From: a virus
Strand: one strand, 5' to 3'
DNA length: 46,429 bases
Virus record (IMG/VR): IMGVR_UViG_3300042890_002896
Span: 1-46,429 of that record
The translations under genes and the position numbers were made by a program. Under the pieces are notes generated by a model. The model had not been told where the DNA came from, searched no databases, and worked only from the letters and a program-made list of their open reading frames with translations. This document shows positions 1 to 25,801 of the stretch, in pieces. Positions within the stretch are counted from its first letter, which is position 1; each line of letters starts with the position of its first letter.

Positions 1-144
1 ATGATTGGTGAAGGTTTAACATTTAATATTAACGAAACTAATAATATTGTTACAGTTTATAATAGTGATTGTATATCACTTGATAATCAAAACAATTTTG
101 AATTAAATGTGGGGATAAATTTTGACATAATTTGTAATCAATAA
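1..144 (+). CDS. C-terminal end of a fibre/adhesin-like protein (partial)
   Basis: The reading frame is open from the left edge to a TAA at 142-144, so this is the end of a gene that starts outside the window. The ATG at base 1 may be internal. The 47 visible residues read like a beta-sandwich, with short strands separated by Asn/Thr-rich turns. They resemble residues about 675-735 of the next protein: both have a strand ending in VY or IY, then N, one or two residues and C (VYNSDC here, IYNKC there), followed by an [IN]-rich strand and a closing C-x-Q. This suggests the two fibre genes share a domain through duplication. The stop overlaps the next start by one base (TAATG), so the two are probably cotranslated. 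A structural role is inferred from this neighbour only. Confidence 0.6.
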   Translation: MIGEGLTFNINETNNIVTVYNSDCISLDNQNNFELNVGINFDIICNQ

Positions 145-3100
145 TGGGATCAATAAGTACATATGGTTTTTCTGTAACAGGGGATTGTACAAATGAAGGG
201 TTAGGTGCAGTAACTTTTTCTGTAACGGGTGACAGTCCAGATTGGTTGGTTATTGAAACACCTATCGCTGGTCTTAATTTACCAACATCCGGGTTAACAA
301 CAACAATAATAAATCCAGGACCACCAATAATCTATGATAATGTTTATTATTATTCAGGATTAAGTGCGGGAAGTTACTTTTTAAGTGTATATGACTCAAC
401 ATATAGTAATTATGTTGTTGTAAATTTCAGTATATCTTCAGGTACCTGCGTTTCAATTAATACAACAGATACTACTTGTGGTTTTGATAACGGAGGGATA
501 ACCGCTACAACACAAAATGTCTATAGTAATGGGGCAACCTTTACGTTGTTTGATATTGACGGGAATTTTATTTCAAGTGGTAGTTCGGTAAGTAATGAAT
601 ATGTTTTTCCACCTGTTTCTGCGGGAACTTATTATGTTGTGGCGGATGATGGTGGAGGATGTAGAGGTAGTAGTGAATCATGTATAGTTAGAGACTCTGT
701 TCCTTTTGATTATGGTTATTATGTTGTAAATGATGGAAGTTGTATAAGTAATGACGGTAGTGGTAAAATATTTTTAACGGGGTTATCCGATCCTAGTTTA
801 TATACGATTAATTGGTTAACAAGTGTTAATGGACAAACGGGAACAACAGTAACAGGTTTAACTGCAGGATTGTATAACGTACAAGTAATTAACGAAGATG
901 GATGTGTTGCGAGTAAGACAATAACTGTAACAGGCGTTGATCCATTAGGTATTGGTGGATTTATGACATACCCACCTGATTGTTTTGTAAACAATGGGGA
1001 AATAACTATAATTGTTACAGGAGGAACTGCACCCTATTATATAGGTTGTTCCAATGGAGATAGTGCAATTATTTTTGGTAGTGACTATACATTTACAGGA
1101 TTATTCTCAGGAACATATAGTTTTAATATAATTGATGCCGGCGTATGTAAAGTGTCAGGAACAACATCAATTAATACATCAAATAGTTTTCAAGTATTAA
1201 GCGTTAACACAACAAATTCAACTTGTAATGATAACTCAGGGTCAGTAACCATCACTTTAATTGGGTCAGGATATTATACATATAGTTTAACTGATTCCTT
1301 AAATAACACAACAAATTTCGGACCTACCACTAATATCGTACAACAATTTAATACATTATCTTCGGGTGTTTATGATTTGGTTGTGACTGATGGTGTATGT
1401 ACTTATGAGACAACAGTTACAATTAATAATACCGAAAAATTTACAATTTCGGCAATAACTCAAAATACTACTTGTGGTTTAAATAATGGATCAATACAAT
1501 TATTAGCAAGTTCAGGTGGTACTTTACCATATAGTTATCAGATAACAGGTTATCCACCTTCACCTGTAACAACATTTAGTAATTTAGCTCCCGGCAATTA
1601 TGTTGGGACAGTAACTGATAGTACAGGTTGTTCACAAACTTTAAATCTTTATGTAAATAATTCTAATGGGGTATTATTTGATTTGGTTGTAACTCAACCA
1701 ACAAGTGGTAATAATGGAGCAATATCTACATTAATTTATGGTGGAACACCAACATTTACATATAATTGGAGCCCAAACGTTAATGGTCAAACAGGGTCAA
1801 CTGTTACTTCATTAAGTGGTGGTACTTATAGTTTGGAAATTGTAGATTCAAGCGGATGTACATATACAAAAACGGTTACTTTATCAGGAAGTGATAAAAA
1901 ATTAAGTTACCAAACATATAATATATGTAACGATAATTTCCAAAGTACGGGTATACTTGGTAAACGAGGTATGCAACAAATGTTATCTGAAGGATTTAAG
2001 GATCTTACTTATGATGATACTGGATGTATTTTAAAAAGTGCTAATTTTATTGCAGATATAACTGTTGATGGTGTAAATACGCAACAATCGTTTTACGTTT
2101 CTTCAGGATTAACAGATTTTCCATCTGACTATGCGTGGGGTCAAGCAATTACTGAAGTTTTGGAAAGTTATGATGGGATAAGTAAAGTTGAAATTAATTA
2201 CTCAACAAATGAGATTAAAATCTACAATAAATGTGTGGAAATAGAAGGTTGTCAACCTGAAACAATTTATTATTTATCTGATGCTAATATTGTGATCAAT
2301 TTAAAATTGGAGTATAATATTTCTTGTCAACAATGTATAACCACACCTACTCCGACACCTACTTTAAGCTTAACCCCTACTTTAACGCCAACACCTACGT
2401 TAACAAGAACATTAACACCTACACCAACTAACACTCCGACGTTAACAAGAACTTCAACACCGACACCAACTGAAACTCCAACAAACACACCAACATTAAC
2501 GCCAACTAATACACCTACACCTACTAACGCATCAATACCTTTTAATTTTAATGTGAGTTATAGTTGTTCGTTACCATCAAGTATTGTTGTTAGTGCGCTT
2601 AGTACGATAGGAGGAGTACCACCTTATCAATTCGGTTCTACAACCTTTACGTCACAAGCCTCGGCATTAGCAAACACTAGTTGGGTTACCTCAAGTAGTA
2701 TAGGTTATGGGGTTTCACCATCATCAGATAATACTTATTGGTTGGTAGGTAGAGATTCTATTGGTAATATTTTGGCAAAATCAGTAACCACCGCTTGTTA
2801 TTCAACCCCTACCCCAACCCCAACTAATACATTGACACCAACACCTACTTCTCCACCTATAGGTGATTCTTTTATATCTGTATGGAGAACAACTAGTTCT
2901 TCAGAAACTATTAATTTACCTTACGATCCTTCTGGTGCATATAGTGGGATAATTGATTGGGGTGATGGTAATACGTCTGTTAATTCATATGGGAATAGGT
3001 CTCATACTTACACTACCGCAGGTGATTATACCGTAACTATAATTGGTATAACAGATAACTTTAGTTTTTATCACGACACCACTAATATATTAAACATATT

Positions 3101-4172
3101 GAGGATTGAGCAATGGGGGAATGTAATAATTGGTAATACCGGTTATCAATTTGGTTATTGTTCTAACCTTACTTTATCTACAGTTACCGACATACCAAAT
3201 CTTACATCAACAACACTTTTTGTGGCTATGTTCGGAGCTTGTTCGTCATTAACAACTATTAATAATGGTAATTCTTGGGATGTTAGTAATGTAACCGATA
3301 TGGATAGTATGTTTGCCTCAACACCATTTAACCAAGATATTAATTCTTGGGACGTAAGTAATGTAACAAATATGAGTGAAATGTTTATTGCTTCGCAATT
3401 CAATCAAGATATAAGTTCTTGGGATGTTAGTAATGTAACCGATATGGATAGTATGTTTGCCTCAACACCATTTAACCAAGATATTAGTTCTTGGAATGTA
3501 AGTGGTGTAACGGATATGGGTACAATGTTTTACCAAACACCGTTTAACCAAGATATTAGTTCTTGGGATGTTAGTAATGTAACCGATATGAATGGTATGT
3601 TCTTTGAAGGAACGTTATTTAATCAACCTATTGGTAGTTGGAACGTAAGTAATGTGATTAGTATGGGTGGTATGTTTTACCAAACACCGTTTAACCAAGA
3701 TATAAGTTCTTGGGATGTTAGTAATGTAACTAGTATGCCAGAAATGTTTTACGGTACACCATTTAATCAACCTATTGGGGGTTGGAATGTAAGTGGAGTA
3801 ACCGCTATGTGGAATATGTTTACTTCAACACCGTTTAACCAAGATATTAGTTCTTGGGATGTTAGTAATGTAACCGATATGAATGGTATGTTCGCCGCAA
3901 CACCGTTTAACCAAGATATTAGTTCTTGGAATGTAAGTGGAGTAACTAGTATGAGGGCTATGTTTAACCAAACACCATTTAATCAAGATATAAGCTCTTG
4001 GGATGTTAGTAATGTAACCGATATGGATATTATGTTCTTTGACGCAACATCATTCAATCAAGATTTATCTTCTTGGTGTGTCACATTAATACCGTCATTA
4101 CCAGGATCTTTTGATTTAAACGCAACATCTTGGGTATTACCTAGACCAATTTGGGGTACTTGTCCACCGTAA
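144..4172 (+). CDS. Giant fibre/adhesin: SprB-like repeats, Thr-Pro linkers, BspA/DUF285 module
   Basis: This 1342-residue protein is modular. Residues 1 to about 600 hold repeated Ig-like units of the SprB type, each with NG-[SA]-I, GG-x-PY and a closing L-x-x-G-x-Y-x-[LV]-x-V-x-D-x-x-GC. Residues about 600-735 form a separate domain that also ends the upstream gene. Thr-Pro linkers follow at about 733-795 and 888-908. Residues about 910-975 look like a PKD-type domain (DWGDGNT, then [11 protein letters not shown]), and about 1043-1316 contain eleven 24-residue BspA/DUF285 repeats ([17 protein letters not shown]) plus a degenerate cap. In bacteria the PKD-DUF285 combination occurs in surface-bound lipoproteins. 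There is no signal peptide, which fits a virion protein rather than a secreted one. Most likely a receptor-binding fibre; no chaperone or attachment motif is recognised. Confidence 0.82.
2340..2530 (+). repeat. Low-complexity Thr-Pro linker DNA
   Basis: Simple-sequence DNA built from variants of ACACCTACTCCGACA encodes TPTPT- and TLTPT-type linkers between fibre domains. The same kind of sequence recurs at about 2803-2860 and 7165-7300 on this strand. It recurs inverted at about 10110-10155, 10500-10640, 10680-10710, 11790-11835 and 12530-12625 inside the minus-strand adhesin. These tracts are flexible spacers at the protein level and patches of homology at the DNA level. Confidence 0.8.
3273..4079 (+). 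repeat. Eleven 72-bp BspA/DUF285 coding repeats
   Basis: A 72-bp in-frame unit encoding 24 residues is repeated eleven times, followed by a divergent twelfth. The blocks coding [10 protein letters not shown] and PFNQDIS are nearly identical in DNA from unit to unit. The bases coding the two residues between the Met of xxM and MF, and the three after MF, differ in almost every unit. The pattern matches the bacterial surface 26-residue repeat family. Near-identity in DNA makes gain, loss or shuffling of units likely. Confidence 0.9.
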
Positions 4173-23968: not shown

Positions 23969-24883
23969 ATGAAAGAAAAATTTTTACCTTGGTTTTTATT
24001 ATTTTGTGCTCTTGGGTTATCAGGAACTGCGGCTTATTATAGTGTGGTGGGGTTATCTATTGTGTTTGTTGGGGTTGCTTTACCTGTAATTATTATGGGA
24101 TCATTTCTTGAGATATCTAAGATTGCGATAGCGACATACTTACATGACAAGTGGAAAGAAACATACGGGGTGTTAAAAGTGTATCTTACAATTGCTCTTG
24201 TGACGTTATCGTTAATTACCTCACTTGGGATCTATGGATTGTTAAGTACTGGATTTCAGGGGAATATTGCAAAACTTGAGATTGGTCAGAAAAAGATTGC
24301 AAACATAGAAGTAAAGAAGACAAGATTTATTGAGATCAAAAACGAACAACAGAAAGAGAAAGACGCATTAGATAAGGACATTTCAAAGTTGCGTGATGGT
24401 TTATCTAATAATACGACAACACAATCTGTGGATAGAAAAACAGGGCAACTTATTACAAGGGCGAATAACGCTAACCGTAAATCATTTGAGGATCAATTAA
24501 ACCTCACCACAGAGAATAGAGATAAGGCGTCAACTCGTATTGACGCAATGAATGACAGTATAACTAAATTAGATATTGAGATACTTGATATGGAATCTGC
24601 GGAGTTGGAGGGTAGTGAATTGGGATCCATTAAATATATAAGTGAGATTTCAGGTTGGGATGTTAAGAAGGTTGCGAACCTTTTCATTTTACTTTTAATT
24701 TTTGTATTTGATCCATTGGCGATTACTTTAGTTATTGCAACTAACCAAGCGTTTAAAAAAAATAAAAAAGGAAGTGTTGCCCCCCAAGTTACCCCCCAAG
24801 TTACCCCCCAAGTTACCCCCCAAGTTACCCCCCAAGTACCGACCAAGTACCGACCAAGTACCGACCAAGTACCGACCAAGTAA
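23969..24883 (+). CDS. Four-helix membrane protein with coiled coil and tandem-repeat tail
   Basis: A 304-residue protein. Three membrane segments lie near residues 7-27, 31-52 and 70-93. A long charged coiled coil follows (about 98-215), then a fourth membrane segment near 232-255 (VANLFILLLIFVFDPLAITLVIA). The cytoplasmic tail is made of tandem repeats: TPQV units from a 12-nt DNA repeat, then a frame-rotating 11-nt repeat that reads PTKYRPSTDQVPTK before TAA. It is next to the lysis genes, so a role in lysis control or membrane remodelling is possible. It is larger than typical holins and its family is not recognised. Confidence 0.7.
   Translation: MKEKFLPWFLLFCALGLSGTAAYYSVVGLSIVFVGVALPVIIMGSFLEISKIAIATYLHDKWKETYGVLKVYLTIALVTLSLITSLGIYGLLSTGFQGNIAKLEIGQKKIANIEVKKTRFIEIKNEQQKEKDALDKDISKLRDGLSNNTTTQSVDRKTGQLITRANNANRKSFEDQLNLTTENRDKASTRIDAMNDSITKLDIEILDMESAELEGSELGSIKYISEISGWDVKKVANLFILLLIFVFDPLAITLVIATNQAFKKNKKGSVAPQVTPQVTPQVTPQVTPQVPTKYRPSTDQVPTK
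24776..24835 (+). repeat. Five 12-nt tandem repeats (TPQV)
   Basis: The unit GTTACCCCCCAA is repeated at 24788, 24800, 24812 and 24824, after one variant copy GTTGCCCCCCAA at 24776. Being 12 nt long it keeps the frame and encodes TPQV repeats. Each unit contains a C6 run, which itself is prone to slippage and to sequencing error. Confidence 0.95.
24836..24879 (+). repeat. Four 11-nt tandem repeats that rotate the frame
   Basis: The unit GTACCGACCAA is repeated exactly four times at 24836, 24847, 24858 and 24869. Because 11 is not a multiple of three, each unit is read in a different frame; none of the three frames contains a stop. Copy number therefore decides whether the upstream protein stops at the TAA at 24881 or reads on into the next frame. 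Confidence 0.95.
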
Positions 24884-24888
24884 AAAAA

Positions 24889-25206
24889 GTGTGGGAAAGG
24901 GTTAAAAAACTAAGAGAAGAAGGTAAATTGTCTCCTGAATCACATGATGATGATGAACCTTCAGCATTGGCATTTACACCATATGATATAGAAGAGGAGG
25001 AAGAAAAAATAGTTGAAGGTCCTATCGTACAAAGAGAACCTTTAATTATAAGTGTTGTAAAAAGTTGGGAACCTGTATCTGATGAAGATTTATTTGAGAA
25101 TCAAGAATACTATATGAAAAGTAATGGTACGGTTGGTGAGTCAACAACTACCACAACAACTAATGATGAAGTTAAGAGATTAGTTTATAAAAAGAATGAT
25201 GAATGA
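24889..25206 (+). CDS. Acidic protein lacking an ATG start; possible extension of the upstream gene
   Basis: A 105-residue frame counted from GTG at 24889; the first in-frame ATG comes only about 77 codons later. The frame is open backwards through both tandem repeats, one base out of step with the membrane-protein frame. Loss of one 11-nt repeat unit would join the two. The product is acidic and low in hydrophobic residues (EEEEEKIVEG, then a Thr-rich patch, then KRLVYKKNDE) and looks disordered. It is either a separate GTG-started protein or the cytoplasmic tail of the membrane protein made by repeat-length change or frameshifting. It overlaps the amidase start by 11 bases. Confidence 0.6.
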   Translation: MWERVKKLREEGKLSPESHDDDEPSALAFTPYDIEEEEEKIVEGPIVQREPLIISVVKSWEPVSDEDLFENQEYYMKSNGTVGESTTTTTTNDEVKRLVYKKNDE

Positions 25207-25801
25207 TGAAGACGTTATAAAATTTGGAGACTTCAATTATGAAGGTGAGGAGGAAGGTAAAACTCAAATAATTTTATCCCATACCTCAAGATTCGCAATA
25301 GATTATATCAATGGTCTAAAATATCGTTATGGAAAAAAGTATAATAAAATACCCAACTATCTAATCACCCGTGATGGTAAGATTATAGAACTATTAAGTC
25401 CAAAGAAATATTCCAAATACATTAAGGATGAGAACATATCTAAGAAGTCAATAACGATTTCTTTAGAAAATTTAGGTTGGTTGGAAAAAGAACCATTAAA
25501 AAATAGATACATTAACTGGATTGGTAATATTTATAATGGAAAGGCTTTTGAGCGTAAGTGGAGGGATTATTTTTTATGGCAACCTTATACTGAAGTTCAA
25601 ATTGATAGTACCATACTAATATGTAAAAAACTAATTGAAGAATTTAACATTAGTAGAAAATGTGTGGGACATAACACTAAAGTAAATGGTGTTACTCAAT
25701 TTGAAGGTATTGTAACCAGAAGCAATTACACCACAGATGTTACGGATCTAAGTCCGGCATTTGATTTTGATTATTTTAAAAAAAACATAGAAGATGAATA
25801 G
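25196..25801 (+). CDS. N-acetylmuramoyl-L-alanine amidase endolysin (Amidase_2 type)
   Basis: A 201-residue protein with the order of motifs of zinc amidases related to T7 lysozyme and PGRP: IILSHTS (His29), a strand-turn YLITRDGKIIEL, SITISLENLGWL, KCVGHN (His159) and TDLSPAFDFD (Asp184). These supply the zinc ligands. It would cut the bond between MurNAc and L-alanine in peptidoglycan at the end of infection. There is no signal peptide, so it needs a holin or other route across the membrane. Spanin-like genes follow, which supports a lysis cassette. Either of the two adjacent ATG codons at 25196 and 25199 could start it. Confidence 0.85.
   Translation: MMNDEDVIKFGDFNYEGEEEGKTQIILSHTSRFAIDYINGLKYRYGKKYNKIPNYLITRDGKIIELLSPKKYSKYIKDENISKKSITISLENLGWLEKEPLKNRYINWIGNIYNGKAFERKWRDYFLWQPYTEVQIDSTILICKKLIEEFNISRKCVGHNTKVNGVTQFEGIVTRSNYTTDVTDLSPAFDFDYFKKNIEDE

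Follow-up and report, generated by a model that had tools for sequence, protein, structure and literature searches.

An 11-nt coding tandem repeat in the tail of a phage membrane protein, read off-phase in one assembled viral genome

Coding repeats whose unit is not a multiple of three are known from the Escherichia coli K1 prophage CUS-3, where the gene neuO carries 7-nt units in 2-93 copies in nature (PMC3046976). The units are located just after the start codon, three of them encode one RLKTQDS heptad, and full-length enzyme is made only at multiples of three units; off states exist and phase variation has been measured, with slippage as its cause (PMC3046976). In the NeuO crystal the repeat peptide could not be resolved and is assumed to be unfolded (PMC3046976). 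Horizontally spread repeat-coding elements have been described as well, namely the palindromic PARCEL / DUF285 repeats (PMC2996958) and the intragenic enterobacterial repeat units (RU elements, PMC2759123), with lengths ranging from tens to well over 100 bp (PMC2996958, PMC2759123).

The DNA analysed here, hereafter the window, is an IMG/VR virus record of 46,429 bases, and its repeat arrays were read directly in the sequence. A 12-nt array on the plus strand (24776-24835) is made up of five frame-neutral GTTRCCCCCCAA units encoding (V-A/T-P-Q), in the order one GTTGCCCCCCAA and then four GTTACCCCCCAA. It adjoins an 11-nt array (24836-24879, plus strand) of four exact GTACCGACCAA units, all identical, and the 12-mer and 11-mer are closely similar in sequence (GTTACCCCCCAA / GTACCGACCAA). 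The 11-nt unit lies inside a coding region and its length is not divisible by three: three units amount to 33 nt and encode VPTKYRPSTDQ, while the fourth shifts the frame, and the off-phase frame is terminated by a TAA (24881-24883, plus strand). Computing the frame for 0-9 copies, we found that 0, 3, 6 or 9 11-mers join the membrane core to the downstream frame (V-K-K-V-W-E-R-V...), that 1, 4 or 7 give an immediate stop, and that 2, 5 or 8 append the seven residues KKSVGKG before a stop. Direct reading thus confirmed the repeat counts, the TAA at 24881 and the copy-number arithmetic of an earlier sequence-only reading of this DNA. The window's two longest period runs comprise 40 matched bases at period 11 and 46 at period 12, whereas 200 first-order Markov simulations with the dinucleotide make-up of the window reached maximum runs of only 11 and 12, respectively, which excludes a chance origin of both repeats.

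Like neuO, the locus is a phage-borne coding repeat with a unit that is not a multiple of three and with three units yielding one peptide, and the repeat region, assumed to be unfolded in NeuO, is predicted to be disordered in the tail of the window protein. Unlike in neuO, the array is located near the 3' end, relatives have three units and there is a single off-phase case; recurrent on- and off-phase copy numbers of the neuO kind were not seen among the relatives, the off-phase state being confined to the window. By analogy, neuO of CUS-3 appears to be the closest precedent, and the window repeat may be called neuO-like in its arithmetic and not a demonstrated contingency locus. The sequence-only reading regarded phase variation by tandem repeats as rare in phages, which is fair, yet a precedent exists in neuO of phage CUS-3 (PMC3046976). 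Like the PARCEL and RU elements, the 11-mer is a short stretch of repeat-coding DNA that occurs in distant lineages and in genes that are not related, but it is far shorter and encodes the same cyclic peptide in three frames. A 1342-aa protein of the window (144-4172) carries DUF285 (PARCEL-type) and SprB repeats and is strongly repetitive at 72/144 nt (PMC2996958). The 12-nt VTPQ units resemble frame-neutral coding repeats that vary protein length, as they vary without a break of the frame; unlike those, they adjoin a frame-rotating 11-nt unit. Oligomers of a length not divisible by three are said, following Ohno, to give one cyclic peptide in every frame. This is the case for the GTACCGACCAA array, which encodes one cyclic peptide whichever of the three frames is read, although Ohno's idea concerns primordial coding sequences and not a described phage element. 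'Repeats of base oligomers' are the words under which that work (Ohno, J Mol Evol 1984) is cited in PMC3654881.

In the window the membrane protein ORF (23969..24883, plus strand) comprises 304 aa, with membrane helices, a central coiled coil (about residues 97-230), a last helix at about 238-260, a basic KKNKK and the truncated tail. The displaced continuation of the tail (24880..25206, plus strand, VKKVWERVKKLREEGKL...KRLVYKKNDE) is in frame with the core at three units. Its frame is open from 24766 to 25206, ending at a TGA (25204-25206), and was described earlier as open back through the repeats and lacking an ATG of its own; this was borne out, as there is no ATG near its start and the sole ATG is located at about codon 76. 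Together with the window's own five 12-mers, a three-copy product would have about 408 residues. The TGA of the tail frame overlaps the ATG at 25196 of an Amidase_2 gene (25196..25801, plus strand, E 3e-9), an N-acetylmuramoyl-L-alanine amidase and likely endolysin. In nearly all relatives checked the tail ends within -41 to +3 nt of the amidase start, and this overlapping or abutting arrangement suggests translational coupling of the tail end to the amidase. The four-copy stop lies 312 nt upstream of the amidase start, and coupling would probably be lost in the four-copy allele.

No PHROG family matched the membrane protein, and Pfam gave a sub-threshold Tetraspanin match only. An assignment as phage holin or known lysis membrane protein found no support, as no described family matched; the next gene is the Amidase_2, but distant homologues are not always adjacent to lysis genes. 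An AlphaFold2 model (mean pLDDT 63), built from the nearest relative, L004, and 50 further relatives, shows a confident coiled coil, membrane helices of low confidence and a mostly disordered tail with pLDDT largely < 50. Comparison of the modelled protein with the PDB gave no significant match (coiled-coil look-alikes, best E 0.12). Judged from hydropathy and from the positively charged residues that follow the last helix, the tail would lie in the cytoplasm, which renders doubtful the likeness to bacterial surface genes on which the sequence-only reading had drawn.

In L004, which reads ...TPQVPTKYRPSTDQVKKVWERVKKLREEGKL..., the arrays consist of four 12-mers and three 11-mers; the fusion predicted for three copies is seen here at exactly the foreseen point. 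In the repeat stretch the window exceeds L004 by 23 nt, corresponding to one 12-mer and one 11-mer; no other coding indel breaks the frame in the approximately 12.3 kb that can be aligned with L004 (90% identical). A one-base error in the C6 runs, mentioned in the earlier reading as another source of the broken frame, is not the cause, as the 23 nt of difference are made up cleanly of complete repeat units. No substitutions are found in the aligned array while its flanks differ by about 10%, which is consistent with repeat turnover. Between window and L004 the downstream frame shows a dN of 0.054 and a dS of 0.39 (dN/dS 0.14), and its differences are distributed 4/7/20 over the codon positions. 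The displaced frame is therefore under purifying selection and was translated during most of the period that has passed since window and L004 diverged; the break is thus either young or not real. Searching for copies of the window's own array elsewhere, we found that only the contig of L004 shares the repeat start, and named phages gave no DNA match.

The membrane core was recovered at 75-96% identity from 80 loci in a scan of viral contigs, to which another scan contributed a few more. After removal of duplicates about 70 distinct loci were left, two of which run off the contig, so that 68 relatives have a visible stop. When translated from the conserved ATG the ORFs comprise about 320-500 codons, and in 67 of the 68 relatives an unbroken ORF extends from the membrane core through the repeat tail, as read in IMG/VR consensus sequences in which minority off-phase alleles would not show. 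The conserved terminus, which nearly always overlaps the amidase start, was found in 66: 61 have the K-R-L-x-Y-x-K form used in the search, and five (L008, L013, L022, L027 and L037) have a variant K-x-L-S/T-Y-x-N terminus, judged by eye. L008 and L074 were considered as frame breaks and rejected: the terminus of L008 is a divergent version of the conserved one, and in L074 the tail is unbroken but has another ending and a different gene downstream. The sole broken relative is L075 (near 6696), whose ORF is broken by the loss of the final membrane helix, next to the tail; this could be a real deletion or an assembly fault. More distant homologues, about 30% identical, are present in Flavobacterium, Microcystis, Pelagibacter, Xanthomonas and Stenotrophomonas phages. 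Given the 67 unbroken relatives and the fused ORF with three 11-mers in L004, fusion is the rule and the window would represent an off-phase allele. The fused ORF in relatives also rules out a separate downstream gene starting from GTG 24889 as the normal state.

The tail is hypervariable and forms a mosaic of short cassettes, among them TPQV, TIHD, VPTKYRPSTDQV, EKIVEVPVEVIKEV, WERVKKLREEGKL and DEPTALAFTPYE. Genomes with cores 98.5-99.7% identical differ in tail length by 12 nt (L041/L047) or 24 nt (L061/L062 and L006/L007). These are in-frame copy-number differences between otherwise near-identical genomes, of exactly 12 or 24 nt, and show that frame-neutral variation of tail length by 12-mers is real and common in nature; the repeats are mutable, as had been proposed. 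A literature search for the TPQVTPQV peptide returned nothing. A different phage membrane protein (L125:1433-2188) has a similar repeat tail and a similar terminus (KRIVYSKTV), suggesting that tails are swapped between membrane proteins.

The explanation we favour, at somewhat better than even confidence, is a coding VNTR in which selection confines the 11-mers to multiples of three, with the window caught after a real slip; the four-copy state in the membrane-protein gene is known from one assembled genome. The phage membrane protein would consist of a conserved core and a C-terminal tail, mostly disordered and probably in the cytosol, in which short coding repeats and cassettes are gained, lost and exchanged over evolution. 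For the 12-nt unit (VTPQ) copy number may vary freely because the frame is kept. The 11-nt unit would act as a 33-nt block of three, since any other copy number than a multiple of three loses the frame that leads to the conserved C-terminus and to the overlapping start of the amidase, and selection for this C-terminus and for the downstream gene would restrict the 11-mers accordingly. Replication slippage, which we infer to be the cause, or unequal recombination between identical units would have added the fourth 11-mer, so that reading now terminates at TAA 24881 and leaves the tail frame cut off. Such an off-phase allele is presumably recent and of deleterious or neutral effect.

The main rival, to which we give a clearly minor share of our confidence, is an assembly or consensus error, by which the 11-mers of the actual genome would number three or some other multiple of three, the fourth 11-mer and perhaps one 12-mer having been added in short-read assembly across the approximately 104 nt of repeats. 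The break coincides exactly with the tandem repeat, the coding sequence within the 12.3 kb aligned with L004 shows no other, the downstream frame is otherwise perfectly preserved, all relatives with a visible stop but one are intact, and the ORF of the exception, L075, is broken by an internal deletion that is possibly likewise an assembly fault. However, a 104-nt array is shorter than a typical short read and its units are cleanly repeated; moreover, 12-mer copy-number changes occur in independent assemblies, which makes real slippage plausible.

The contingency switch proposed in the sequence-only reading we consider improbable. Here, a mutable 11-mer count would mix long-tailed (3n) and short-tailed (3n+1, 3n+2) forms and possibly switch translation of the amidase via its overlapping start. 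The frame arithmetic fits, slippage is favoured by the identity of the units, the downstream frame has remained intact, the overlap with the amidase start is conserved and neuO of CUS-3 provides a phage-borne precedent (PMC3046976). A switch would nevertheless require recurrent off-phase states, and these are absent, so that it is not supported: besides the 67 of 68 unbroken frames, no off-phase 11-mer array was found in the membrane-protein gene of any relative, with the window as sole case, nor in a second gene, in contigs whose consensus would hide minorities. This second gene, Pyr_excise-like by a borderline Pfam match (L087, L088, L092-L097, L234-L313 and other loci), has the same two repeats, of 12 and 11 nt, in a single loop flanked by HH and PYKLSHKNHPC; its inserts measure 24, 30, 33, 42, 45, 54, 66 or 78 nt and are divisible by three in 79 of 79 parsed alleles. 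Arrays in coding viral relatives contain three full units, six or nine were not seen, and in several relatives the units have diverged, which would damp slippage; the units of L004, L044, L060 and L067 are perfect. A fixed 11-mer number across relatives, named in the earlier reading as evidence against switching, is thus largely what we found, with three in coding viral relatives and four only in the window. In addition, the 3' position of the repeat means that every copy-number state still yields the membrane core, four copies are a short tract, and the tail is predicted to be cytosolic and not surface-exposed. A split gene, with translation stopping at TAA 24881 and restarting at GTG (24889..24891, plus strand), core and tail as two proteins and amidase coupling persisting, is very improbable: this possible re-initiation codon of the four-copy allele follows the stop by five bases and gives access to the whole of the conserved tail frame, but no relative is split at that point and a tail made apart from its membrane anchor is without known parallel in the family.

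The 11-mer recurs in other genes. A search pattern of about two and a half 11-mer units matched 47 viral stretches and 20 stretches in a prokaryote genome collection, where < 0.01 were expected by our own estimate from base counts. Viral arrays are located in the tail of the membrane protein, the loop of the Pyr_excise-like gene, the L125 membrane protein and a large ORF of L107, and in-frame 3 x 11 arrays occur in 20 distinct tail contexts in the relatives. Most bacterial arrays lie in a linker before a Fic-like_C domain, in SLFN_AlbA_2 or HATPase_c_4 proteins (L134, L135, L137-L149 and L151-L153), with period-11 tracts of up to about seven units, and belong to Capnocytophaga, Flavobacterium, Prevotella, Muribaculaceae and a few other phyla. 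Tentatively, and with more doubt than belief, we suggest that GTACCGACCAA-type 11-mers might be a horizontally spreading, frame-indifferent coding micro-repeat that becomes established as three-unit blocks in unrelated proteins of phages and bacteria, namely in their disordered tails, loops and linkers, via off-phase intermediates (1, 2, 4 or 5 copies) like that of the window. Two stretches were recorded separately. L119 (470-518), the sole viral four-unit stretch besides the window, has four exact 11-mers, no clear gene and a direct repeat CAAAAGTTTACTATA on either side. In L136 (near 650-690, minus strand) the array is found directly 3' of the stop of an unrelated peptidase-like gene and precedes a Fic-like_C-like fragment, as if at a recombination junction.

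The locus belongs to a phage protein family that changes its tail length by whole repeat units between near-identical genomes, and the array offers a natural experiment on how a repeat that rotates the frame stays at copy numbers divisible by three. A real off-phase allele would give a rare view of the broken stage through which the repeat passes from one in-frame state to another. As the 11-mer turns up in unrelated genes of phages and bacteria, one may ask by what route a repeat of this small size is able to spread.
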